From Oscillospiraceae bacterium (GTDB lineage: Bacteria; Bacillota; Clostridia; Oscillospirales; Ruminococcaceae), in contig JAJQGB010000004.1 of assembly GCA_021200775.1 (NCBI GenBank), positions 372,001-436,000 on the forward strand: 64,000 nucleotides of DNA. Direction: 5' to 3'. How positions within the stretch are numbered: the first letter of the stretch is position 1; the number at the start of each line of letters is the position of its first letter. The notes beneath the pieces were generated by a model that was not told where the DNA came from, made no database searches, and saw only the letters and a list, made by a program, of their open reading frames with translations. Position numbers and translations under genes: made by a program. Shown in pieces: positions 19,956-28,908 of the stretch.

Positions 19956-20624
19956 TCATCCTGTCGGGTCAATCGGCAGTGGAATTCTACCTTCATCATC
20001 AGACACACTGATGTATGGCTTGGTTGTTGACTCGGTAGCTGTACTGGAAGCAGAGGATTCTGTTGAAGTGGTAGTAGCTGATGTTGTGCTCTCAGTCGTA
20101 GTCGTTGTCGATGTACCTGTATCAAGTTCCATTATCGTAGTCACGGTCGGTGAGTAGGACGGGTAGTAGAAAAAGCTGTACGAATCGACTGATTCATCGC
20201 CAAGGTCGACGGTTTCATCAGATTCATCTATGTCTACCGATTCATCCGACTCGTCAAGTATGATGTCTTCCGAGCTGTCACTTGCTATCACAGCTGTTGT
20301 GGGTGTTTTGGTAGTCGTAACGACAGTTGTCGATGGCGGAGAAGTCGTGGATTCGGGAGAAGTAGTGACTATCGGTTCGCTTGTCGTCGTACTTGGAGCG
20401 GTTGTCGTTGCAGGTGGAGATGTCTCCTCCGGAGCTGCAGTGGTTGTAGCAGGAGAAGTTTCTTCCTGTGAAGCTGAAGAAGTCTCTTCAGAATTGATGA
20501 CAGTCACTGATTCAGCTTCAGACTCTGGGGAAACTTTATAAATCCTTATACTCACACAACCAGAAAGCAAAACAGCGGTCAAGAGAATCGTAATGCATAT
20601 ATGCAGTATCTTATAGTGCTTCAT
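19956..20624 (-). CDS. Thr/Ser/Pro-rich lipoprotein, unknown function
   Basis: A 222-residue exported lipoprotein. The signal peptide ends in the lipobox LLSGC with Cys at residue 23. Almost the whole mature chain is low-complexity: Thr/Ser/Pro/Glu repeats of the PATTTAAPEET and STTTSEP kind, then an acidic block (DESDESVDIDESDETVDLGD) and a Tyr-rich patch. No catalytic domain is visible, so it may act as a stalk or spacer at the cell surface. It begins 15 bp behind the beta-helix protein gene and is probably co-transcribed with it. Confidence 0.7.
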   Translation of the reverse strand: MKHYKILHICITILLTAVLLSGCVSIRIYKVSPESEAESVTVINSEETSSASQEETSPATTTAAPEETSPPATTTAPSTTTSEPIVTTSPESTTSPPSTTVVTTTKTPTTAVIASDSSEDIILDESDESVDIDESDETVDLGDESVDSYSFFYYPSYSPTVTTIMELDTGTSTTTTTESTTSATTTSTESSASSTATESTTKPYISVSDDEGRIPLPIDPTG

Positions 20625-20639
20625 ATGCCCCCATTCTCC

Positions 20640-22283
20640 TTATCGCCAGCCATTATAATTGTATGCCACAACACTGTAATAGTAAATGGCTTTACAGAGA
20701 TTTGACAAATTTTCTGCGGTCTCGTCCGATTTCAGAGCATTGTAGACATAAGAAAGAACGCTATAGCTAGTGAACTCCTCGCCGTTTTTAAGAACTGTCT
20801 GTGTGTTTACCATATCTTTTGCTGGAACCTTAAACTCGACATAATATTCGTAGTTTTCATCAGTTACAGAATGTCTTTCAAGTACGGCATCGCCAAAAGT
20901 TAAAACATCTGAAATCTCTGTGGTGCCTTTCTCAATATATAGACGAATGACGACACTGCTTCCGAGAATCAGGGCTTTGGAAACTCCTTCTGTTCCTGTT
21001 CCAGAATAGCCACTGAGGTCTGCTGTCCACTCACCGACTACAGGGTCCGTCCACCCTGAAACATCAGAAAGTGAATTAGTGCACTCTGTGCCAGTATACA
21101 GACTTGCGTAGTAGCCGTAATTGAGAAGAGCTTTACAGAGCTCAGCCTCCGGTTCCCAGCCTTCTGTGCTGATAGCGTGCATGCAGTAGGTCTCCACTGA
21201 GTATTCGATAGTCTCAGAAGAATTGGTGCCGTCGGTCAAGGTAGCATAAATGGTTGAGCCGAATTGGTCAGGATTCACGTAAACCGTGTAACGGTAACAG
21301 TAAAGCCCATCAACCGTCTTTGGCTCGATGGCGGCAACAGTTCTCGTTTCTTCCTCACCCTCAATCTGCACCTGAAGCGTGTATATATCAGGATTCTCCT
21401 GCCCGGTCATATCGAAATAATATGTAACTCCAACCTCGCCATCCAAAGTAAGCGAATTTCCATAATATTCAGGCATCAAGGTCTTCGCCTTTACAACATA
21501 AGGATAATCAGAGTTGCCCGAATCTACACATTCGTAGCCTTCGGGAACATAGCTTGTCACGTCTGTGCTGTAATAGCCGGCGGTGATGGTGGCATTCGCT
21601 AAACTTGATTTGAATATTGCCTTTGCAGAAGAGGCGGTCGACTTTGTACAAACATAAGCGTTAGGGTTTGTAATTGAAAGAACATTGCCGCTTGCGCAAT
21701 AGATTCCATGAGCTTCAGTAACACTTTTAGTCGTGAGAGCAGATATTTCAACTGGGGTAGTGCCACTTACAGTAATAGTCCCATTCGTATTATAAATTGC
21801 GGCGTGTTCAGTGCCAACAACCTTGCCGCCAGTAATATTTATATTGCAACCAGTACTGTTAGAATATATACCATACGAACCACTTACAGTTCCACCACTC
21901 ATATTGAGCGTTCCGCCATTTGAAATCTTAATTGCATATGTATTAGTGGTATTTGTTGTCTGGACTAGGCTACCACCACCATCAGAACTACTGTCAATCA
22001 AATTAAGAGTTCCTCCAGAAATAAGGATAACATTAGTGCTTTCACTGCTTAGAGAATGTCCGTTTAAATCGATAGTCACCTCTGTGCCAGACTTAACTCC
22101 CAAAGCGCTTTTATTTGTAACGTCGCTGTCAAGGCGGTAATAACCTCCGTCTTCCAAATAACCACTCGCTGGTAATTCCAGATAGTTCTCATCTGCTGTC
22201 GCAATCGTACCTGCAAAATAGCTCGATGACAGGCAGAAAACCATCATCAAGGCTGTTAAGATGCATAATGCCCTCTTTTTCAT
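20640..22283 (-). CDS. Secreted beta-helix (pectate-lyase-like) protein
   Basis: A 547-residue exported protein. After a signal peptide (MKKRALCILTALMMVFCLSS) residues about 35-260 show short repeats typical of right-handed parallel beta-helices (VTIDLNGHSLSS, GGTLNMSGGTVSGSYGIYS, NINITGGKV). The rest is probably beta-sandwich (TYYFDMTGQENPDIYTLQVQ) followed by a helical C-terminus (SNLCKAIYYYSVVAYNYNGWR). There is no sorting signal or lipobox, so release or non-covalent attachment is expected. No catalytic residues are evident; an adhesive or scaffold role is as likely as polysaccharide lyase activity. ATG 22283 follows GGAGGG. Confidence 0.7.
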   Translation of the reverse strand: MKKRALCILTALMMVFCLSSSYFAGTIATADENYLELPASGYLEDGGYYRLDSDVTNKSALGVKSGTEVTIDLNGHSLSSESTNVILISGGTLNLIDSSSDGGGSLVQTTNTTNTYAIKISNGGTLNMSGGTVSGSYGIYSNSTGCNINITGGKVVGTEHAAIYNTNGTITVSGTTPVEISALTTKSVTEAHGIYCASGNVLSITNPNAYVCTKSTASSAKAIFKSSLANATITAGYYSTDVTSYVPEGYECVDSGNSDYPYVVKAKTLMPEYYGNSLTLDGEVGVTYYFDMTGQENPDIYTLQVQIEGEEETRTVAAIEPKTVDGLYCYRYTVYVNPDQFGSTIYATLTDGTNSSETIEYSVETYCMHAISTEGWEPEAELCKALLNYGYYASLYTGTECTNSLSDVSGWTDPVVGEWTADLSGYSGTGTEGVSKALILGSSVVIRLYIEKGTTEISDVLTFGDAVLERHSVTDENYEYYVEFKVPAKDMVNTQTVLKNGEEFTSYSVLSYVYNALKSDETAENLSNLCKAIYYYSVVAYNYNGWR

Positions 22284-22361
22284 AAGCCCTCCACTAATAT
22301 CCTAACTAAGAGCTAGTATTAATCCTTTAGGCGTCAACCGGTTAAGTCATATTGTGAGTTT

Positions 22362-22391
22362 ATTTTAACATGCTAGTGCTTTTGTTGTCAA
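22362..22391 (-). promoter_or_regulatory. Promoter of the beta-helix / lipoprotein pair
   Basis: TTGACA (22391-22386), 18-bp spacer, TAAAAT (22367-22362), 79 bp upstream of the ATG at 22283. Confidence 0.65.
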
Positions 22392-22497
22392 GACTATTTG
22401 CAAATTTTATCGACTTTTTTATCATAAAATATTCTCGCATAGCCAGGGATAATCTCCATTTAAATGCTTCTATTGCAATTCCCTCCGATATATGCTG

Positions 22498-22524
22498 AAA
22501 TCCCAAGACATTTGACTCGGGATT
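22498..22524 (-). terminator. Weak terminator of the RiPP-type cluster
   Basis: Stem AATCCC / GGGATT with imperfect inner pairs just downstream of the last cluster gene; the following T tract is poor. Confidence 0.4.
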
Positions 22525-22528
22525 CCTA

Positions 22529-22789
22529 TTAATTCTCTTCGCCTTTTTCAGCTTCTGCATTTTTCAGCCGTCGGCGTTTTTCCTGGATGCCTTTCAGGGA
22601 GCGACCGATTTTTTGGGAGAGCTCGCTGTCGGGGATGGAATGTTCCAGAACCATCTTCTCTTCCTCGGGAGTCCAGGCACGCTTCGGATACTTGTTTGCT
22701 GTTTTTCCATAGTATCGCTTTTTATCGATACGTTTCCTTAGTCGCTCATGCTCGGCTTTTACTTCTGGGTCTAGTTTCTTACGTGACAT
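22529..22789 (-). CDS. Small basic SANT/Myb-like protein, 86 aa
   Basis: A highly charged 86-residue protein. Residues about 38-75 (RAWTPEEEKMVLEH, SELSQKIGRSLKGIQEKRRR) fit a SANT/Myb-like helix-turn-helix, with the WTPEEE start and a basic recognition helix. The N-terminus is very basic (KRIDKKRYYGK). DNA binding is inferred; a target is unknown. It is the last gene of the run beginning with the RiPP-like precursor, 28 bp behind the membrane coiled-coil gene, so it may be a cluster regulator or an unrelated passenger. ATG 22789 follows GGAAGAG. Confidence 0.65.
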   Translation of the reverse strand: MSRKKLDPEVKAEHERLRKRIDKKRYYGKTANKYPKRAWTPEEEKMVLEHSIPDSELSQKIGRSLKGIQEKRRRLKNAEAEKGEEN

Positions 22790-22817
22790 AATTCACTCTT
22801 CCTTCTGATGTCAATTC

Positions 22818-23786
22818 TTAATACTCAATTTTGCTGTATATTTCTTGTATAATTATTTCTAACTCATCAATTCGCTCCCGGATTTCTTCTATTCGCTCTT
22901 CATTGGAGGTTTTCAAATCTTCTTCGGTCTGATTAATTTGCTGTAATTCTGCTACAACCTCTGCAACCGTTGAAAAAGAGCAATCGTCGTATTCTATGTA
23001 ACTTTTTGCTATGTCGATAAGATTGATTACGCTTTCTTCAGCCGCATTTCCTGAATTAATGCTTTCCATGTCAAATGCCAATAGCATTGATGTTTTATTC
23101 GCATAGAGCCACGATAAATAATTACTCATTGAATCGAAAGAATCATCAGACGCTATACGTACATAGTCAAAGTACACATAGCCATCGCTTGTCTGTCCTG
23201 ATTGTGGGGCACTTTCATGATAAGTGGTGTATCCGATGAAGCCATCATCCTTTATCAACTGTAGTGTAACAGTGTTCATAGAGCTGTTTCTGATAAGAAA
23301 AACACCTGTATGCTCTCTTTCGATTGAGTTCAAGTAATCCATAACGATTAAAACACTGTCATTAGTACTGGCAGAAAAATTGTCAGCGTACAGCATAATT
23401 TCCCAATTATCAGCTGCGTTTATAAAGCTCTCTACACTTGTCAAATCCATTTCGCAATCAATGATAAGAACGGGCTCAAAGCCATATACTTCAGACTTAT
23501 TCTCAATATACGAGATATCCGCTAAGTCGGAAATAATAAATCCAATCATTATCTCTGCTTTTTCGCTTGAATAGGTGATATTCTCCAAATCCTCCAGCTC
23601 ATCCTCCAGCTTGCGAAGTTCTATCTCATACGGTCTTGCTTCTGTCTGCAATTCCTCTATGGCTTCCTCCCGAATTTTTTGTTCTTGATTGTTTGTATGT
23701 ATCATGTATGCCAGCGTGCCTGCAAGAAGCACACTGAAAACTATGCATACTACATTTCTGATTTTTGTTACCCTGTTATGTGTCAT
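22818..23786 (-). CDS. Membrane-anchored coiled-coil protein, RiPP-cluster associated
   Basis: A 322-residue protein with one N-terminal membrane segment (VVCIVFSVLLAGTLAYMI), a coiled coil at about residues 35-75, an extracellular domain, and a second coiled coil at the C-terminus (NEERIEEIRERIDELEIIIQE is part of it). The middle (PVLIIDCEMDLTSVESFI, WEIMLYADNF, TGVFLIRNSSM) has the alternating strand pattern of a degenerate polysaccharide-deacetylase-like barrel, but the usual metal triad is not seen. ATG 23786 follows AGGAG and overlaps the end of the HPr-kinase-like gene. The function is unknown; extracellular display or export of the peptide is a guess. Confidence 0.6.
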   Translation of the reverse strand: MTHNRVTKIRNVVCIVFSVLLAGTLAYMIHTNNQEQKIREEAIEELQTEARPYEIELRKLEDELEDLENITYSSEKAEIMIGFIISDLADISYIENKSEVYGFEPVLIIDCEMDLTSVESFINAADNWEIMLYADNFSASTNDSVLIVMDYLNSIEREHTGVFLIRNSSMNTVTLQLIKDDGFIGYTTYHESAPQSGQTSDGYVYFDYVRIASDDSFDSMSNYLSWLYANKTSMLLAFDMESINSGNAAEESVINLIDIAKSYIEYDDCSFSTVAEVVAELQQINQTEEDLKTSNEERIEEIRERIDELEIIIQEIYSKIEY

Positions 23787-24498
23787 TACCACTCCTACCA
23801 CTTTGCTTCATTCCTTTATACGCCACAACGGCGGCTTCCTGAGACATATTACACCTTAATCTGTAGATGGGTACTTCCCGCACAAGCTGATTCAGCAAAT
23901 CCAGTTGTTTAATAATCTGCTCCGCATCATCGGGGAGCAAAACCTGATTAAACAGCGTGTCAATCATCTCGTCGCTCGTTGCTTTAACAATGCTGTTTTC
24001 AGTACCGCGTTCCAGAAGACACACCGCTTTCAGCGGCACATTCTCCGCGACACCAAGTCTTTCTTTTCCCCGCCATGGTGTGCCGCAGGCATAGAACTTT
24101 CCGTCAATCTTTCTGATGATTGGCTTATCTCCGTTAAGAATGTATGCTTTGCCTGCAAACTCTCGCAGCCAGTAATTTGCATGTGTGCTTTTGCCTGTTC
24201 CTCCCGGCGCGGTAAACACATATGCCTCACCGTCAAGAGCAACTACTGCGGAATGAAGCAAAAAGCCGTCATAATCCAGCATCTTCAAAGCAACTTTCCT
24301 ATACAGGCAATTGCCCTCACAGCCGGCGGAATCAAACTCGTGGTTAAGTCTCTCGACTTCCTCACAAATCTCATCCTCCGATGCAGACACGGTGAACAGA
24401 GCTTCTTTTTCAGTTTCATGACCACACCATACCCACTCCATAAAGTCCTGCTTATTATCCACGGCAAGCGGTATACCGGCAATTTCAATTTTTCTCAT
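23776..24498 (-). CDS. HPr kinase/phosphorylase-like P-loop protein of a RiPP cluster
   Basis: A 240-residue protein whose central part is the HPr kinase C-terminal type P-loop: FLLHSAVVALDGEAYVFTAP then GGTGKSTHANYWL near residues 99-111, followed by ILNGDKPIIRK and GTPWRGKE. It lacks the N-terminal HprK domain and the HprK catalytic His signature context. Such stand-alone HprK-like proteins occur beside PqqD-like proteins in RiPP clusters; in some lasso peptide clusters they phosphorylate the precursor. Kinase activity on the 60-residue precursor here is inferred. It lies between the PqqD-like gene and the membrane protein gene. Confidence 0.78.
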   Translation of the reverse strand: MRKIEIAGIPLAVDNKQDFMEWVWCGHETEKEALFTVSASEDEICEEVERLNHEFDSAGCEGNCLYRKVALKMLDYDGFLLHSAVVALDGEAYVFTAPGGTGKSTHANYWLREFAGKAYILNGDKPIIRKIDGKFYACGTPWRGKERLGVAENVPLKAVCLLERGTENSIVKATSDEMIDTLFNQVLLPDDAEQIIKQLDLLNQLVREVPIYRLRCNMSQEAAVVAYKGMKQSGRSGNDT

Positions 24499-24538
24499 AA
24501 ACTTGGACCTCCCTGAACACCGTCCGCTATGGAAACAA

Positions 24539-24805
24539 TCAGTCTACCAATACTCCGGCATCCGCAAATTTCTGAACAGCCAAACGATACGAGGTAGTGG
24601 CACGTTCTTCGGTGATCTGGTACTTTTCTGCCATTGCCGCCACAGTTTCTTCCTCAGTTTTCTCTGCCGCTAAGCACTCCCATATGAACTTTGCAGTCCC
24701 ATTAAGTTTGACTACGTATTTTCGCGTTCTGCTCGCTTTGCCAATAGGCACCGCCACAGTCTTGTCTCCTACATCACGCAAAACAAAATCCTTACTGATT
24801 TTCAT
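24539..24805 (-). CDS. PqqD family peptide chaperone (RiPP recognition element)
   Basis: An 88-residue PqqD-like protein, the winged-helix-type element that binds a RiPP leader peptide and presents it to the modifying enzyme. Family features: an N-terminal strand pair (FVLRDVGDKTVAVPIG), then LNGTAKFIWECLAAEKTEEE near residue 34-53 and a helical end (EERATTSYRLAVQKFADAGVLVD). It sits 21 bp downstream of the radical SAM gene and 40 bp upstream of the HprK-like gene. It overlaps nothing and starts at ATG 24805 behind GGAGG. Confidence 0.88.
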   Translation of the reverse strand: MKISKDFVLRDVGDKTVAVPIGKASRTRKYVVKLNGTAKFIWECLAAEKTEEETVAAMAEKYQITEERATTSYRLAVQKFADAGVLVD

Positions 24806-24826
24806 ATTGTTTTAACCTCCTGGTGT

Positions 24827-26158
24827 TTATTTTAAGGTTGATTTGTAATAATCAACAATATCTTCCTTTAATCTGTTGAGCTTATCCTCACGCATATACG
24901 GCTCGCATTTATGCGCACTTGGGCAGCATTGAAGCATAATGCAATTAGGAAACAGCGGGCATGTGTCGCACTCTGAATCCGGCTCATCTGTAACTTTCCA
25001 CTCGTTGACAACATCTTCATCAGTTATTCCTGTGTATATGCTGCCGCAGGTTTTCGCCCAATAAACATGCTGGCATTCTCGCAGGTCTCCGTTTGGAGCG
25101 ATCACTATCGCTGAATCACTGTCTGCCATACAGTAATTTGTATGTATTCTATTCAATGAATCCGTCCGGTACTGCTTAATGCCCTTTGACCGAATATATT
25201 CCTTCAATCTCCGCAAATCAGCGTAGGCATCTTCCGAAGTTCCCCTCAAAGGAGTATCCGATTTCCCGTCACTGATGTGTTTTACGGAAACATAGAAGTT
25301 TTCATACTGCTTATATCTGTCGGATACATAATCACAGAGATTTATTAAGTCCTCAACATTCTCCCGATCCACATTCATTCGCAGGTTTATCGTGACACCT
25401 GATACCAAAAGCCGCTCTATATTATCCGTGACCCTTACAAACGCACTGCCTAGGTTATTGACATACGCCTTGCGCTTATTATATATATCCTCAGTTCCGT
25501 CCAGCGTAATCTGAACATTATTCAAGTGCCAGTCGTTCACAGCTTTTTCTATCAGTTCTTCTGTGAAGAGGTATCCGTTTGAAGTCATCCGTGAGGAGAA
25601 CGATATGCCGAGAGCGGAGAGTCCGCCGGATATAACATCTATAACTTCTGAATTAAACAGCGGCTCGCCGCCAAACCAGTGAAGGTAAACCTTCTCACCG
25701 CCGCTAGTAGATTCTATGAATCTAACAACATCCAAAGCCGTCTGGCGGCTCATAGAAACCTTCTCGCACCCATGCTCATAGCAGTAAAAGCACCTGGCAT
25801 TGCAGTCCATTGTGGTAACTACGGTATATGAGGACAGATGTTCCGGTGCATACATCACTGATGCAAGAGAGCGGATGTCCAGTGCCAGCTTTTTGTCATC
25901 GCGATTCTGAGGAACGAGAAACCAATTATCATAGAGATATTGCCGCAAAGAACTATCTGAATCATCAGAATTAAGTGTATTGTATTCCTCAGTATCCAGC
26001 AACAACATTTCCTTTGTAACAGTGTTATATATAAGGAAAGACTCGTCCACAGGAGGAGCAACAACACAGTATGAAAAAAGACGTAGGGAAGACTCATCCC
26101 CTGAGGTTTGACAACCCAATATTTTCTTAATTTTATGCCCCTTCTTGATTACTTTCAT
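24827..26158 (-). CDS. Radical SAM/SPASM peptide maturase
   Basis: A 443-residue radical SAM enzyme with SPASM-type C-terminus. Residues about 1-105 are a leader-binding-type N-domain. The [4Fe-4S]-SAM motif is CNARCFYC (C119, C123, C126), followed by HWFGGEPLF near 155-163. The Cys-rich end (NYCMADS, LRECQHVYW, SECDTCPLFPNCIMLQCCP) should hold auxiliary clusters. This build is that of ranthipeptide, sactipeptide and related maturases. I start it at ATG 26158 behind GAGG, not at 26203. It lies between the precursor and the PqqD-like gene, so crosslinking of the precursor is the likely reaction; the bond type is unknown. Confidence 0.88.
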   Translation of the reverse strand: MKVIKKGHKIKKILGCQTSGDESSLRLFSYCVVAPPVDESFLIYNTVTKEMLLLDTEEYNTLNSDDSDSSLRQYLYDNWFLVPQNRDDKKLALDIRSLASVMYAPEHLSSYTVVTTMDCNARCFYCYEHGCEKVSMSRQTALDVVRFIESTSGGEKVYLHWFGGEPLFNSEVIDVISGGLSALGISFSSRMTSNGYLFTEELIEKAVNDWHLNNVQITLDGTEDIYNKRKAYVNNLGSAFVRVTDNIERLLVSGVTINLRMNVDRENVEDLINLCDYVSDRYKQYENFYVSVKHISDGKSDTPLRGTSEDAYADLRRLKEYIRSKGIKQYRTDSLNRIHTNYCMADSDSAIVIAPNGDLRECQHVYWAKTCGSIYTGITDEDVVNEWKVTDEPDSECDTCPLFPNCIMLQCCPSAHKCEPYMREDKLNRLKEDIVDYYKSTLK

Positions 26159-26270
26159 ATTCCTCAACCTCTCAATATATATTCCATACCACGATTTCGG
26201 CACTCAAAACAGGGTTCTATATAGCTATAAAATCTTCCTTTGAAAGCCGAACGATAGGTGTTTTAAGTAT

Positions 26271-26314
26271 AAAAATCCCCCATGGCCAGCTGTAACCATG
26301 ACCACAGGGGATCT
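26271..26314 (-). terminator. Attenuating terminator between precursor and radical SAM genes
   Basis: The minus-strand RNA forms about 14 pairs (AUCCCCUGUGGUCA with UGGCCAUGGGGGAU, several wobble) followed by UUUUUAU. Placement after the precursor suggests partial termination, giving more precursor than enzyme. Confidence 0.65.
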
Positions 26315-26347
26315 TTTATAGATCATTCTATTTCAACTAAGGCAAAA

Positions 26348-26530
26348 TCATTCTTTGGCACATTCCGGCAGGTCTCCAGAAAAACCGCCACCATCATCAA
26401 GCGTTGTACCTGCAGAAGTAACAACTACTGAATCATCGCCCTCAAGAGAAACAACATTAACCTCTGGCTCAACATATGTAGTTTCCACGGTATCACTTCC
26501 TTCGTAAAATTTAGACGTATCTTTTGCCAT
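26348..26530 (-). CDS. RiPP-like precursor peptide, 60 aa
   Basis: A 60-residue peptide with no signal sequence. The N-terminal part (residues 1-30, with VEPEVNVVSLEGDD) reads as a leader of the kind seen in Clostridia next to PqqD/radical SAM genes. The C-terminal part, after VVVTSAG, is TTLDDGGGFSGDLPECAKE: glycine-rich, with one Cys at 57 and acidic residues, and is the presumed core. ATG 26530 follows a strong AAGGAGGAA site and a consensus promoter. It is the first gene of the cluster. A one-Cys core argues against a classical multi-thioether sactipeptide or ranthipeptide. Confidence 0.8.
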   Translation of the reverse strand: MAKDTSKFYEGSDTVETTYVEPEVNVVSLEGDDSVVVTSAGTTLDDGGGFSGDLPECAKE

Positions 26531-26537
26531 AAAAAAT

Positions 26538-26616
26538 TCCTCCTTAGATTTCGCAAAGGAGGAGAAATGTAGATATGAAAAATCCTCCGTTGCACTTTGT
26601 TAAATAGTGTCGGAGG
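26538..26616 (-). promoter_or_regulatory. Leader of the precursor mRNA with competing SD pairings
   Basis: Upstream hairpin CCTCCG (26616-26611) / CGGAGG (26589-26584) with inner CACT / AGTG pairs. A CTCCTCC stretch (26564-26558) follows, then the ribosome-binding site AAGGAGGA (26545-26538). CTCCTCC can pair with either GGAGG copy, so mutually exclusive structures are possible. Confidence 0.45.
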
Positions 26617-26728
26617 TTTGGTATGGGTGCTTGATTTCGACGAAAAAATATCCGCAGAAACCAGTACCCCCCCCGAATGAATACATATTGTGGTATGGTC
26701 TTAATGCTCAATCCCCAAGCATGTATAT

Positions 26729-26757
26729 ATTATAATACGGTTCGTGGGGGTTGTCAA
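26729..26757 (-). promoter_or_regulatory. Perfect consensus promoter of the RiPP-type cluster
   Basis: TTGACA (26757-26752), 17-bp spacer, TATAAT (26734-26729), about 200 bp upstream of the precursor start. Confidence 0.8.
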
Positions 26758-26814
26758 GCGTTTTTTTAAATTTTTCTGAAAAAATTTTTCGCCGGAGATT
26801 TTTTAAAAAAGTGC

Positions 26815-26843
26815 TTGACAAAGTTCCGGAGTTGTGCTATCAT
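26815..26843 (+). promoter_or_regulatory. Promoter of the initiator tRNA gene
   Basis: TTGACA (26815-26820), 17-bp spacer ending TGTGC (extended -10), TATCAT (26838-26843). Confidence 0.75.
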
Positions 26844-26880
26844 ATATGAGCGTTCGGGGCTAGCGCCCCTTACGATATAT

Positions 26881-26956
<76 letters not shown>

Positions 26957-26960
26957 GAAT

Positions 26961-26996
26961 AAAATTCCGAATCGTTATGGCGGTTCGGGATTTTTT
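26961..26996 (+). terminator. Terminator of the tRNA gene
   Basis: Stem ATTCCGAATCG / CGGTTCGGGAT (one mismatch, one wobble) followed by TTTTTT. Confidence 0.75.
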
Positions 26997-27038
26997 GTTG
27001 TTCTCAGAAAAAGTCAATAATCGTCTCATAATCGGTCA

Positions 27039-27067
27039 TTGAATTTTATACAATTTTATAGTATAAT
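27039..27067 (+). promoter_or_regulatory. Promoter of the GH43 gene
   Basis: TTGAAT (27039-27044), 17-bp spacer, TATAAT (27062-27067), 33 bp upstream of the ATG. Confidence 0.7.
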
Positions 27068-27099
27068 TTGTCCATACCCTTTAGAAAGGAACATTTAAA

Positions 27100-28908
27100 A
27101 TGAAGAAAAGGATAATTAACTTCATGACAATTGCTACGATACTTGTCACTTCCCTCACAGCTTGCGGAAGTGCAACAGCATCAGACTTCACCATTTCAAA
27201 GGATTTGGTTGACACCCAGGAGCTCGGCTACAGTGTTGGGAATTCTCTCACTGAAGCTTACAAGACTGTAGGTGAGAACAACCCGATTTCGTCGGTCACC
27301 TTCTTTGCCGACCCGACTTCGGTTGAGTATAACGGCAGGCTCTATGTCTACGGAACGAACGACAGCGAACAGTATGACAAGGGCACCGGCTCGGATGAGA
27401 ATACTTACGGTTCGATTGGCTCGCTCGTCTGCTACTCCACCGACGACATGGTGAACTGGACCTATGAGTGCACCATCGAGGTCACCGACATTGCGACATG
27501 GGCTGGGTGCTCTTGGGCTCCGTCCATCGTTTCAAGAGAGAAATCGAATGGAAAGACAGAGTTCTTCCTCTACTTTGCTAACGGCGCAGGAGGAATCGGA
27601 GTTCTCACTTCTGACTCCCCCACCGGTCCGTGGAAAGACCCTCTCGGCAAGGCTCTTATTGATAATTCCACAGGTGCTTTGGCTAAAGACCCGGTTTACT
27701 GGTGCTTCGACCCTGGCGTTGTTATCGACGATGACGGCGTGGGATGGCTTGCTTTCGGCGGAGGAAGTGCCGTTCACGATGACGAGGACGGAATGTTCAC
27801 AGGTAACTGCCGTCTTGTAAAGCTCGGAAGCGACATGATTTCCCTTGCCAGTGACATTGTGAAGATTCCCGCCGTTTACCACTTCGAGGCAAACGAATTG
27901 AACTACATCAATGGCACGTATGTCCTGACTTACTGCTCGAACTATACAGACAGATATGCGTGGTCTTCATACGATTCTGATGAGGACGCACCGACGACTT
28001 GTTCAATGGTCTACATGACATCGACCGACCCTCTCAACCCGGATAGCTGGGTATATGGCGGCTTATATCTCTCGAATCCTTCGCGCTATGGCTTCCCATT
28101 CAGCAACAACCATTCGCACCTGCAGAAGTTCGGGGACACATATTATATTCTGTATCAGACAGTTATGCTCCTTGACAATATGAATTCATCCGCAAGTGGC
28201 TACAGAAGCATTGGGGTTGATGTTATAGATGTAGACGAAGATACCGTTACTATCTCCCCTGCTACTATGACTCGTGAAGGAGTCGAACAGTTGAAAGACC
28301 TGAATGCGTTTTCGGTTAATCAGGCGGAAACAGCGGTTACAACTGCTGGAATCAAGTACCACACAAGTGATGGCAAAACCTACATCACAAGCATTTCAGA
28401 TGGCGACTGGTCGGCGGTTTCGTCGGTTGATTTCGGAAATGGCGCAAACGCATTTGCGGCTACTGTCAGAGGAAAAGGCATAATTGAGGTAAGGCTTGAT
28501 TCGGTTGACGGAACTGTTGTCGGAAACGTTCAGTTCAATACCGGAAGCGATTTCCAGACGATTGTATGCACTCTTGACAAGATGGTTTCGGGCACTCATG
28601 ATCTTTACTTCGTATTCGGCGGAAGCTTCGTCTTTGACGAATGGCAGTTTGCGTACATCTCGGACGAAACAGTTTCCGGACTAAGTGCCAATGCAAGCAC
28701 TGGCAAGGTCAAGCTTTCCTGGAATTCGAGTACCGATTCCGAGTACACAATCTACTACAAGAGGAGTTCCTCCTCTGAATGGAAGATTGCCGGAACCACC
28801 ACGAAAAGCTCTGTAAGTATCACAGGGCTCATGAGTGGCGTTAGCTACCAGTTCGTGATTAAAAACAGCACATCAAGCACGGATATTGTGACTGCCACGC
28901 CTTCATAA
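27100..28908 (+). CDS. GH43 lipoprotein glycosidase with CBM6-like and FN3 domains
   Basis: A 602-residue surface glycosidase, probably arabinofuranosidase or beta-xylosidase acting on arabinoxylan. The lipobox LTSLTAC gives Cys22. The five-bladed GH43 domain covers about residues 60-390: FFADPTSV (base Asp), CFDPGVVIDDDG (pKa-modulating Asp) and YHFEANELNY (acid Glu) are in the expected order. Residues about 400-515 look like a CBM6-type beta-sandwich (FDEWQFAY at its end), and 520-602 a fibronectin type III domain. ATG 27100 follows AAAGGAAC. It is flanked by its own promoter and terminator. Confidence 0.88.
   Translation: MKKRIINFMTIATILVTSLTACGSATASDFTISKDLVDTQELGYSVGNSLTEAYKTVGENNPISSVTFFADPTSVEYNGRLYVYGTNDSEQYDKGTGSDENTYGSIGSLVCYSTDDMVNWTYECTIEVTDIATWAGCSWAPSIVSREKSNGKTEFFLYFANGAGGIGVLTSDSPTGPWKDPLGKALIDNSTGALAKDPVYWCFDPGVVIDDDGVGWLAFGGGSAVHDDEDGMFTGNCRLVKLGSDMISLASDIVKIPAVYHFEANELNYINGTYVLTYCSNYTDRYAWSSYDSDEDAPTTCSMVYMTSTDPLNPDSWVYGGLYLSNPSRYGFPFSNNHSHLQKFGDTYYILYQTVMLLDNMNSSASGYRSIGVDVIDVDEDTVTISPATMTREGVEQLKDLNAFSVNQAETAVTTAGIKYHTSDGKTYITSISDGDWSAVSSVDFGNGANAFAATVRGKGIIEVRLDSVDGTVVGNVQFNTGSDFQTIVCTLDKMVSGTHDLYFVFGGSFVFDEWQFAYISDETVSGLSANASTGKVKLSWNSSTDSEYTIYYKRSSSSEWKIAGTTTKSSVSITGLMSGVSYQFVIKNSTSSTDIVTATPS

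Follow-up and report, generated by a model that had tools for sequence, protein, structure and literature searches.

What does an operon make in which a peptide gene is followed by a radical S-adenosylmethionine (SAM) enzyme of the SPASM kind, a PqqD-like protein and a kinase-like protein, and does it act alone in its genome? The question is raised by positions 22529 to 26757 of a 64,000-nucleotide stretch from an Oscillospiraceae bacterium (contig JAJQGB010000004.1, positions 372,001 to 436,000), the whole of which is here called the window. With a probability of about 0.62, the operon makes a modified ribosomal peptide, and does so as a specialised branch of a genus-specific system of dispersed precursors. 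This reading starts from the gene order, a leader family, the co-occurrence of genes, an acidic preference three residues after cysteine and a shared 5′ leader, all read directly from the DNA, and from them it proposes binding, crosslinking, phosphorylation, attenuation, processing in trans and function.

The operon, its leader family and the core cysteine

The six open reading frames (ORFs) lie on the minus strand in the order that a first-pass annotation, made from the letters alone, had given them:

26348..26530, minus strand: precursor peptide, 60 residues, ending C57-A-K-E60
26414..26476, minus strand: leader motif YVEPEVNVVSLEGDDSVVVTS, precursor residues 19-39, from the leader models
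24827..26158, minus strand: radical SAM/SPASM enzyme, from Pfam and alignment; the reading frame stays open as far up as a GTG at 26203
24539..24805, minus strand: PqqD-like leader-binding protein (RiPP recognition element, RRE), from Pfam PF05402
23776..24498, minus strand: HprK-like kinase, from its family profile, conserved residues and AlphaFold2 model
22818..23801, minus strand: coiled-coil protein with one transmembrane (TM) segment, by eye; relatives stand in HprK-PqqD loci of the genus
22529..22789, minus strand: presumed SANT-like protein, 86 residues; 10 copies found in the genome

The precursor, MAKDTSKFYEGSDTVETTYVEPEVNVVSLEGDDSVVVTSAGTTLDDGGGFSGDLPECAKE, has AGGAGG about 8 nt before its ATG. 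From 593 candidate stretches, a contig scan returned at least 505 relatives of the radical SAM enzyme. The best 80 were retained and, with the window, the paralogue in its own genome and 7 family loci, these 80 named loci make up the 89 considered here. By record title, the kept relatives belong to Clostridia, Bacteroidales/Prevotella, Atopobiaceae/Coriobacteriaceae and, in one case, Lentisphaeria. A leader hidden Markov model built from 15 hand-picked peptides of such loci, and partly circular in that the seeds are counted among its matches, recovered 45 of 13,283 small ORFs at E ≤ 1e-3; 41 of the 45, in 37 loci, share the strand of the enzyme gene and lie no more than 4 kb from it; the window peptide, itself a seed, scores E 2.4e-6. 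At E ≤ 0.01, 46 leader-like peptides were found near the enzyme in 40 of the 89 loci. A conserved leader followed by a variable core thus recurs beside a modifying enzyme across genomes, as expected of a ribosomally synthesised and post-translationally modified peptide (RiPP). The annotated RiPP-type cluster, whose leader family and enzyme neighbours recur elsewhere beyond chance, holds up well, as does the conservation of precursor with enzyme genes that had been proposed as its check, and the leader alignments agree with a leader/core border near VVVTS and a variable Gly/acidic core after it.

Within 5 kb of the enzyme gene, a PqqD-like gene is present in 51 of the loci, an HprK-like gene in 39 and both in 32, with ABC-type genes in 16, S24/S26 signal-peptidase-like genes in 14 and nucleotidyltransferase-like genes in 9 (all labels derive from matches below NCBIfam cut-offs and from inspection by eye). 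Arrangements vary among these loci. The second radical SAM gene of the window's own genome (L033, 6631-12120 on contig C9) is accompanied by a four-Cys precursor, with a nucleotidyltransferase-like gene, by eye, before it and two SANT-like/peptide pairs after it; L062, L070 and L088 hold three tandem genes of the window-enzyme family with short leader-like peptides nearby; and in L053, L056, L074, L084, L090 and L111, with Prevotella or Bacteroidales titles, the radical SAM gene is followed by a PqqD gene, one or two HprK-like genes and a second PqqD gene.

The radical SAM enzyme carries the annotated CNARCFYC motif and scores 44.1 bits against Pfam Radical_SAM (cut-off 29.5), its ATG at 26158 aligning better with relatives than the GTG at 26203. 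Ten cysteines are invariant in a five-row alignment (C119, C123, C126, C343, C362, C397, C400, C406, C412 and C418), giving the CX3CX2C motif and the additional cysteines of a SPASM maturase; the last seven are presumably the SPASM cysteines. No Pfam SPASM match was found in the window enzyme, and phmmer returned no relative of solved structure at E ≤ 0.01. Close full-length relatives are few among the matches listed, namely the own-genome paralogue (47%), two in genome G308 (46 and 47%) and L041-L043 (48-51%).

The PqqD-like protein, at 44.7 bits against a PF05402 cut-off of 23.4, is confirmed as such. For the HprK-like protein, no Pfam match was found at E ≤ 1 and the NCBIfam matches, ScmC and HprK_rel_A, are sub-threshold; a family profile search reaches HPr kinase 1ko7 (E 0.0016) and PEPCK 1ii2 (E 0.00094), in line with the annotated identity, and the AlphaFold2 model is confident (pLDDT 93). 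In 24 aligned rows from 33 HprK-like genes, H82, the P-loop residues G100/G102/K103/T105, N122 and D124 are invariant, supplying the His, P-loop and Asp of an HprK active site; which His and Asp are catalytic is our assumption. For the last two genes, the ORFs stand as annotated but the labels lack such backing, since the one-TM coiled-coil protein was recognised by eye, with no family above cut-off in Pfam or NCBIfam, and scans of both with the 86-residue protein gave no match at E ≤ 1, "SANT-like" being a name that we presume to apply.

Core cysteines are carried by 44 of the 46 enzyme-linked peptides (one in 11, two in 17, three in 12 and four in 4), so that a Cys thioether is the expected chemistry, and the annotated objection that a single Cys fits no such class falls away, given that 11 cores have exactly one. 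Asp or Glu stands at Cys+3 in 32 of 90 cases against 17.0 in within-core shuffles (z 4.2); this excess was reached in 2 of 5000 shuffles at that offset and in 4 of 5000 after correction for the best of 14 offsets, the effective number being lower because some of the cores are related. Acidic residues are also raised at position -1 (29 against 19.3), other upstream positions being at chance. The only Cys of the window peptide follows the main pattern, as C57-A-K-E60, and Glu60 is its likely partner. According to the available parts of PMC9413430, the maturase PapB forms Cys-Asp/Glu thioethers with spacings of n 0-6, while the transposed order yielded no product; this makes C57-E60 a better candidate than D53-C57, and D53 is not favoured either by the upstream residues, at chance except for position -1. 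The PqqD-like protein would bind the leader (Y..PEV.VV.L...D.VVVTS) and hand the peptide to the radical SAM/SPASM enzyme, which would most likely link C57 to an acidic residue as a thioether, with E60, in a CX2E ring, as the best candidate; the HprK-like kinase would then phosphorylate Ser/Thr.

Leader-sharing peptides dispersed through the genus

The wider peptide family lies beyond the annotated interval, as do the SANT-like link and the surface-protein modules described below, and the first-pass annotation did not take them in. A further leader model (A2), for which 18 peptides of the genome that holds the window (G000) were aligned, was applied to 31 genomes of the genus. At E ≤ 1 it matches 34 peptides in G000, 29 in G304, 25 in G308, 9 in G309, 7 in G305 and 0 to 4 in each of the other 26; in the stretches fetched, 92 distinct peptides remain at E ≤ 0.5 (G000 32, G304 23, G308 22, G305 7, G309 5, G301 3), and G000 as a whole has about 33. 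Many precursors sharing one leader therefore lie away from the enzyme genes, as expected of a dispersed-substrate system, and the window peptide comes under the same model as the others, being included in it and among its weaker members. Eighteen peptides form a tandem array in G000 (L203, 8159-10896, contig C9), matched by an array of 15 in G304 (L177), each array including one member at E 0.4-0.5. The G000 array lies just downstream of two large-serine-recombinase-like ORFs (by eye; L203, 4500-7474), neighbours which suggest that it is mobile or exchangeable.

Conservation is concentrated in the leader, where positions 1, 4, 6, 8, 9 and 11 (Y, H/Y/P, M/L/I, I/V, I/V, F) hold 2.1-3.7 bits each and positions 19-36 hold below 0.8. 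Ratios of nonsynonymous to synonymous substitution (dN/dS) for leader and core, from 8, 5 and 5 ortholog pairs between three genomes, are 0.23/0.22, 0.12/0.32 and 0.16/0.15, with dS often near saturation in these 18 pairs; values of 0.12-0.32 indicate that the peptide ORFs are genes, while the cores of paralogues have diverged. Chance ORFs are ruled out by these ratios together with a peptide number that tracks the SANT-like gene over the 31 genomes. That gene is present in 5 of them, exactly those with at least 7 peptides (34, 29, 25, 9 and 7), the other 26 having at most 4, a coincidence with a chance of 1 in 169,911 if labels are independent, although the five genomes may be one clade. All 10 copies found in G000 are linked to a peptide gene, nine at 2 to ~700 nt, sometimes with a lipoprotein gene between, and the tenth, that of the window, in line with its peptide at ~3.5 kb.

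The HprK-like gene also goes with the peptides: both are present in 11 genomes, HprK only in 3 (G299, G310, G322), peptides only in 3 (G307; G313, E 0.18; G320, E 0.29) and neither in 14 (Fisher p 0.001, relatedness uncorrected). Relatives of the window HprK at 59-61% in the genus adjoin peptides and SANT-like genes with no such radical SAM gene beside them. In L197 (5853-10608), L198, L182, L183 and, in the window's own genome, L136, the order is HprK, PqqD, a small ORF and a membrane coiled-coil protein, then a large ORF, for which Pfam gives a P-type ATPase in L197 and L136. This HprK-PqqD locus is a candidate for the central processing locus; the 151-residue product of the small ORF in L197 has a weak likeness to signal peptidase I (27.1 against 47 bits) and might cleave behind the small residues at the end of the leader. 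Some 30 dispersed precursors with a common leader and differing cores would be served by one PqqD/HprK set or a handful of them, the putative trans-acting loci being those of the window, of C9 113802 (neighboured in relatives by a signal-peptidase-like gene) and of the C6 HprK.

Core cysteines separate the enzyme-linked peptides of the genus from the rest: 4 of 4 that adjoin the radical SAM gene have them, compared with 4 of the remaining 88 (Fisher p 2.5e-5). In G000 they are found in 3 of 32 peptides, the other 29 having none. The radical SAM branch would serve Cys-bearing cores, and Cys-free ones would be handled by PqqD and HprK alone.

A serious but less probable alternative puts the kinase first, with HprK phosphorylating the C-terminal Ser of the peptides as paeninodin-type lasso kinases do, and the radical SAM enzyme as a late and optional addition. 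In its favour, a C-terminal SDS is found in 15 and a C-terminal Ser in 21 of the 92 genus peptides, and G304, G305 and G309 have peptides, the SANT-like gene and HprK without this radical SAM gene, so that the system as a whole does not require the enzyme. Ser is, however, common in the cores (a fraction of 0.164), which leaves the 21 of 92 as only a mild excess, and the window peptide ends in Glu. With lasso kinases using a C-terminal Ser, according to the available text of PMC8498205, the phosphorylation that the first-pass annotation had envisaged for the window core is not supported.

The shared 5′ leader and the surface-protein units

The operon begins behind regulatory features that it shares with other units, and is followed by two further genes:

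26729..26757, minus strand: sigma-70 promoter, TTGACA-17-TATAAT, in a block conserved in most aligned copies
26520..26728, minus strand: conserved 5′ leader RNA, with a terminator-like hairpin (CCTCCG..CGGAGG and T5) and a hairpin covering the ribosome site
26280..26301, minus strand: terminator-like hairpin in the gap between precursor and radical SAM genes, a putative attenuator, with a U-run (folded as 26262-26326, -27.5 kcal/mol, z -4.6)
22362..22391, minus strand: second promoter-like site, 11/12, ahead of the gene for the secreted protein
20640..22283, minus strand: large secreted protein, signal peptide by eye; elsewhere in the genus, relatives precede peptide genes
19956..20624, minus strand: Thr/Ser-rich lipoprotein, lipobox by eye, with a short C-terminal tail ...GRIPLPIDPTG

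The promoter is as perfect as had been annotated (12/12). A tRNA gene (26881-26953, plus strand) lies just upstream of it and points away. For the secreted protein and the lipoprotein no Pfam match was found at E ≤ 0.1; the operon unit may extend to 19956 and take both in.

The 5′ leader is found in 26 aligned copies, that of the window included, from five genomes, with 69-90% identity over the matched part; 22 stand before secreted-protein ORFs (mostly MAKRL...) and 4, including the window's, before peptides. Some match at E ≤ 0.001 is present in 20 of the 31 genomes, many of them short. The conserved pairs are GGGUAC/GUACCC, CCUCCG/CGGAGG with the U-run, and CCUCC/GGAGG over the ribosome site. 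RNAalifold found no two-sided change among 21 pairs of the 26-copy alignment, so that the structure rests on conserved pairs and sequence. As to known Rfam leaders, only the tRNA reaches its gathering score within 22200-27100, leader matches scoring 13.7-15.3 bits against cut-offs of 55-70. The structured leader may set expression, and the hairpin after the peptide gene may hold the enzyme below peptide levels.

Both ends of the operon can be followed into other genomes. Two parts of the window, the promoter with the 5′ leader (26522-26792) and the SANT-like gene (22553-22790), have aligned counterparts at one site in G304 (L204) and G308 (L191), where a secreted protein, a peptide and a lipoprotein lie between them; in the same place G000 has the peptide, radical SAM, PqqD, HprK and membrane protein genes, and then a secreted-protein/lipoprotein pair. 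The three sites are flanked by the same downstream genes, which we take to be rpsO-pnp. The unusual start of the window peptide, MAK, probably derives from the start of a secreted-protein ORF behind the leader.

These alignments bear on an unlikely alternative, by which the operon would be a stand-alone antimicrobial RiPP cluster and the other leader-like peptides of the genome a look-alike family rather than its substrates. The Cys-bearing enzyme-linked cores do differ from the mostly Cys-free others, and radical SAM clusters of other genera carry the ABC-type (16/89) or signal-peptidase-like (14/89) genes counted above. A stand-alone cluster nevertheless accords poorly with the SANT-like gene and shared 5′ leader of the window operon, with the neighbourhood of the 59-61% HprK relatives, and with the single leader model that covers window and array peptides.

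Many of the dispersed precursors lie in units that also encode a secreted protein, a lipoprotein with a tail and a SANT-like protein, and the promoter and 5′ leader stand at the head of many such units. At 23 places in the stretches fetched (author's count; G000, G304, G305, G308 and G309), the gene of a large secreted protein has a peptide gene immediately after it, and a Thr/Ser-rich lipoprotein gene is often next. The lipoprotein tails fall into four main types, WQGAVPV, VWGPLF, GWTDYY and ELPAVPIT-like. ELP..P-like tails also end TM-bearing proteins near radical SAM/peptide loci outside the genus (L037, L079, L110).

Tails of peptide and lipoprotein resemble each other within units. Over 21 true pairs, taken as those with a lipoprotein-like ORF directly downstream (the nearer of two peptides being used in L190, and the non-adjacent window pair left out), the score is 388 against 277.7 ± 20.6 in permutations, none of 20000 of which reach it; the pairs are not independent, and when they are grouped by the four tail types (20 of the pairs, L215 being untyped and left out) the true pairing comes first among 24. 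Individually, 8 pairs score at least 20 and 9 score below 16, with no clear match. The tail type of the window lipoprotein matches least (13.5 against 11.6-12.4 for other types), and the window's own peptide and lipoprotein tails have no clear match by eye. Outside the genus, among 33 peptides with a TM-bearing neighbour, a score of 25 is reached by 3 (0.16 expected; 0 of 1000 draws) and one of 20 by 4 (0.88 expected; 17 of 1000), L072 and L096 being obvious by eye; in a looser scan, score 25 is reached by 1.8% of 223 against 0.5% of 3209, a modest excess. Codons differ in clear matches (L096, GAT ACG CCT ATC GGC against GAT ACA CCC ATA GGG; L072, GAA ACT CCC against GAG ACA CCG), which argues that the likeness is kept at the protein level and is not a fresh DNA copy; for L043 the DNA of peptide and tail is almost the same, and copying is conceivable there. 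The L072 stalk protein presumably bears S-layer-type repeats, as judged by eye.

That the peptides instead serve the neighbouring secreted protein in the cytosol, as chaperones, anti-activators or targeting adaptors, with PqqD and HprK in that pathway and the radical SAM enzyme recruited to it, is favoured by the 23 adjacent placements and by G304, G305 and G309, but is the least probable account given such RiPP hallmarks as the leader/core split, the variable cores, Cys in 44 of 46 enzyme-linked cores and PqqD/HprK/signal-peptidase-like loci in the same genomes.

Within the preferred reading of a dispersed-precursor RiPP system, which may be a new peptide-signalling or display system, a doubtful extension can be outlined for the surface. 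Each unit would supply a secreted protein, a peptide processed by PqqD and HprK, and a stalk, anchored in membrane or wall, whose tail copies the peptide C-terminus, the released modified peptide and the tethered copy competing for one receptor; the shared leader RNA and the SANT-like protein would coordinate some thirty peptides, and radical SAM cassettes, that of the window among them, would be swapped in between promoter and SANT-like gene to give a crosslinked variant.

Weight of the evidence and known systems

Several findings weigh against the preferred reading. No leader-model peptide at E ≤ 0.01 lies near the enzyme in 49 of the 89 loci, and neither PqqD nor HprK is within 5 kb in 31, some contigs being short. 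The window enzyme falls far below the cut-off of each of 25 NCBIfam models compared (best 143 against 525, as for the RiPP maturase TIGR04463 with 143.2; PapB ranthipeptide maturase NF047865, 90.1 against 340 bits), so its reaction is not readable from family. To these are added the three peptide-bearing genomes without this enzyme, and a window peptide that lacks the terminal Ser of lasso-kinase substrates. Leader conservation fits RRE binding, as PqqD-type proteins bind RiPP leaders in the accessible text of PMC8498205, but could reflect another partner. In agreement with the first-pass annotation, no dedicated transporter was recognised in the window operon, nor was a protease. From 29831 onwards, on the far side of a divergent gene, there are two ABC-type ORFs.

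Should the reading be true, there are gut bacteria whose genomes each encode dozens of leader-bearing peptides for one small enzyme set, outside the one-cluster-one-product picture of genome mining. A CX2(D/E) crosslinking enzyme and a peptide kinase would then have substrates ready to hand, and the role of the adjoining stalk lipoproteins and secreted proteins would become testable.

In the literature searched, where subscription journals are mostly outside coverage and absence is accordingly weak, no work combining radical SAM, PqqD, HprK and RiPP was found, none on SynChlorMet, and none describing a dispersed, leader-RNA-headed, surface-linked peptide family. Radical SAM, HPr kinase and RiPP meet in PMC4289311, whose available text places the HPr kinase in lasso clusters; the accessible part of the Bacteroidales RiPP survey PMC10352776 has no HPr term.

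Among the closest known systems is SynChlorMet (TIGR04248/4249/4250), which likewise joins a radical SAM/SPASM enzyme with PqqD-like and HprK-like proteins and whose ScmC is the best NCBIfam match of the window HprK-like protein. The window proteins are nevertheless below its cut-offs (ScmC 24 against 125, ScmD 14.6 against 100, ScmE 43.9 against 400), and the window system has many precursors with another leader. PapB maturases are likewise SPASM enzymes acting on a Cys with Asp or Glu a few residues on, accepting, in the available parts of PMC9413430, Cys-Xn-Asp with n 0-6 as well as Glu; the window family differs in its 1-4 Cys in short cores, a Cys+3 (CX2) rather than CX3D spacing, a separate PqqD and the low profile score given above. 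The paeninodin and pseudomycoidin lasso systems, as far as PMC8498205 is accessible, share an HprK-like kinase, whose homologues in lasso clusters phosphorylate a C-terminal Ser, and a PqqD-like B1, and some loci here have nucleotidyltransferase-like neighbours (by eye; no NCBIfam match). The window core does not end in Ser, and no Pfam match to a B2 protease or C cyclase was found among eight operon products, two proteins expected in a lasso cluster. Prochlorosins and SyncA/ProcM, in the available text of PMC10783134 and PMC9872173, offer a parallel in logic, one enzyme set meeting many leader-sharing, core-diverse precursors; here the enzymes are radical SAM, PqqD and HprK instead of LanM, processing in trans is proposed, and the precursors come with secreted/stalk units, a SANT-like gene and a shared 5′ leader. 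The whole may be placed with the dispersed-substrate RiPP systems; its radical SAM part is a new branch of a known kind, and what is unusual is the dispersed, leader-RNA-headed and surface-linked peptide family around it.

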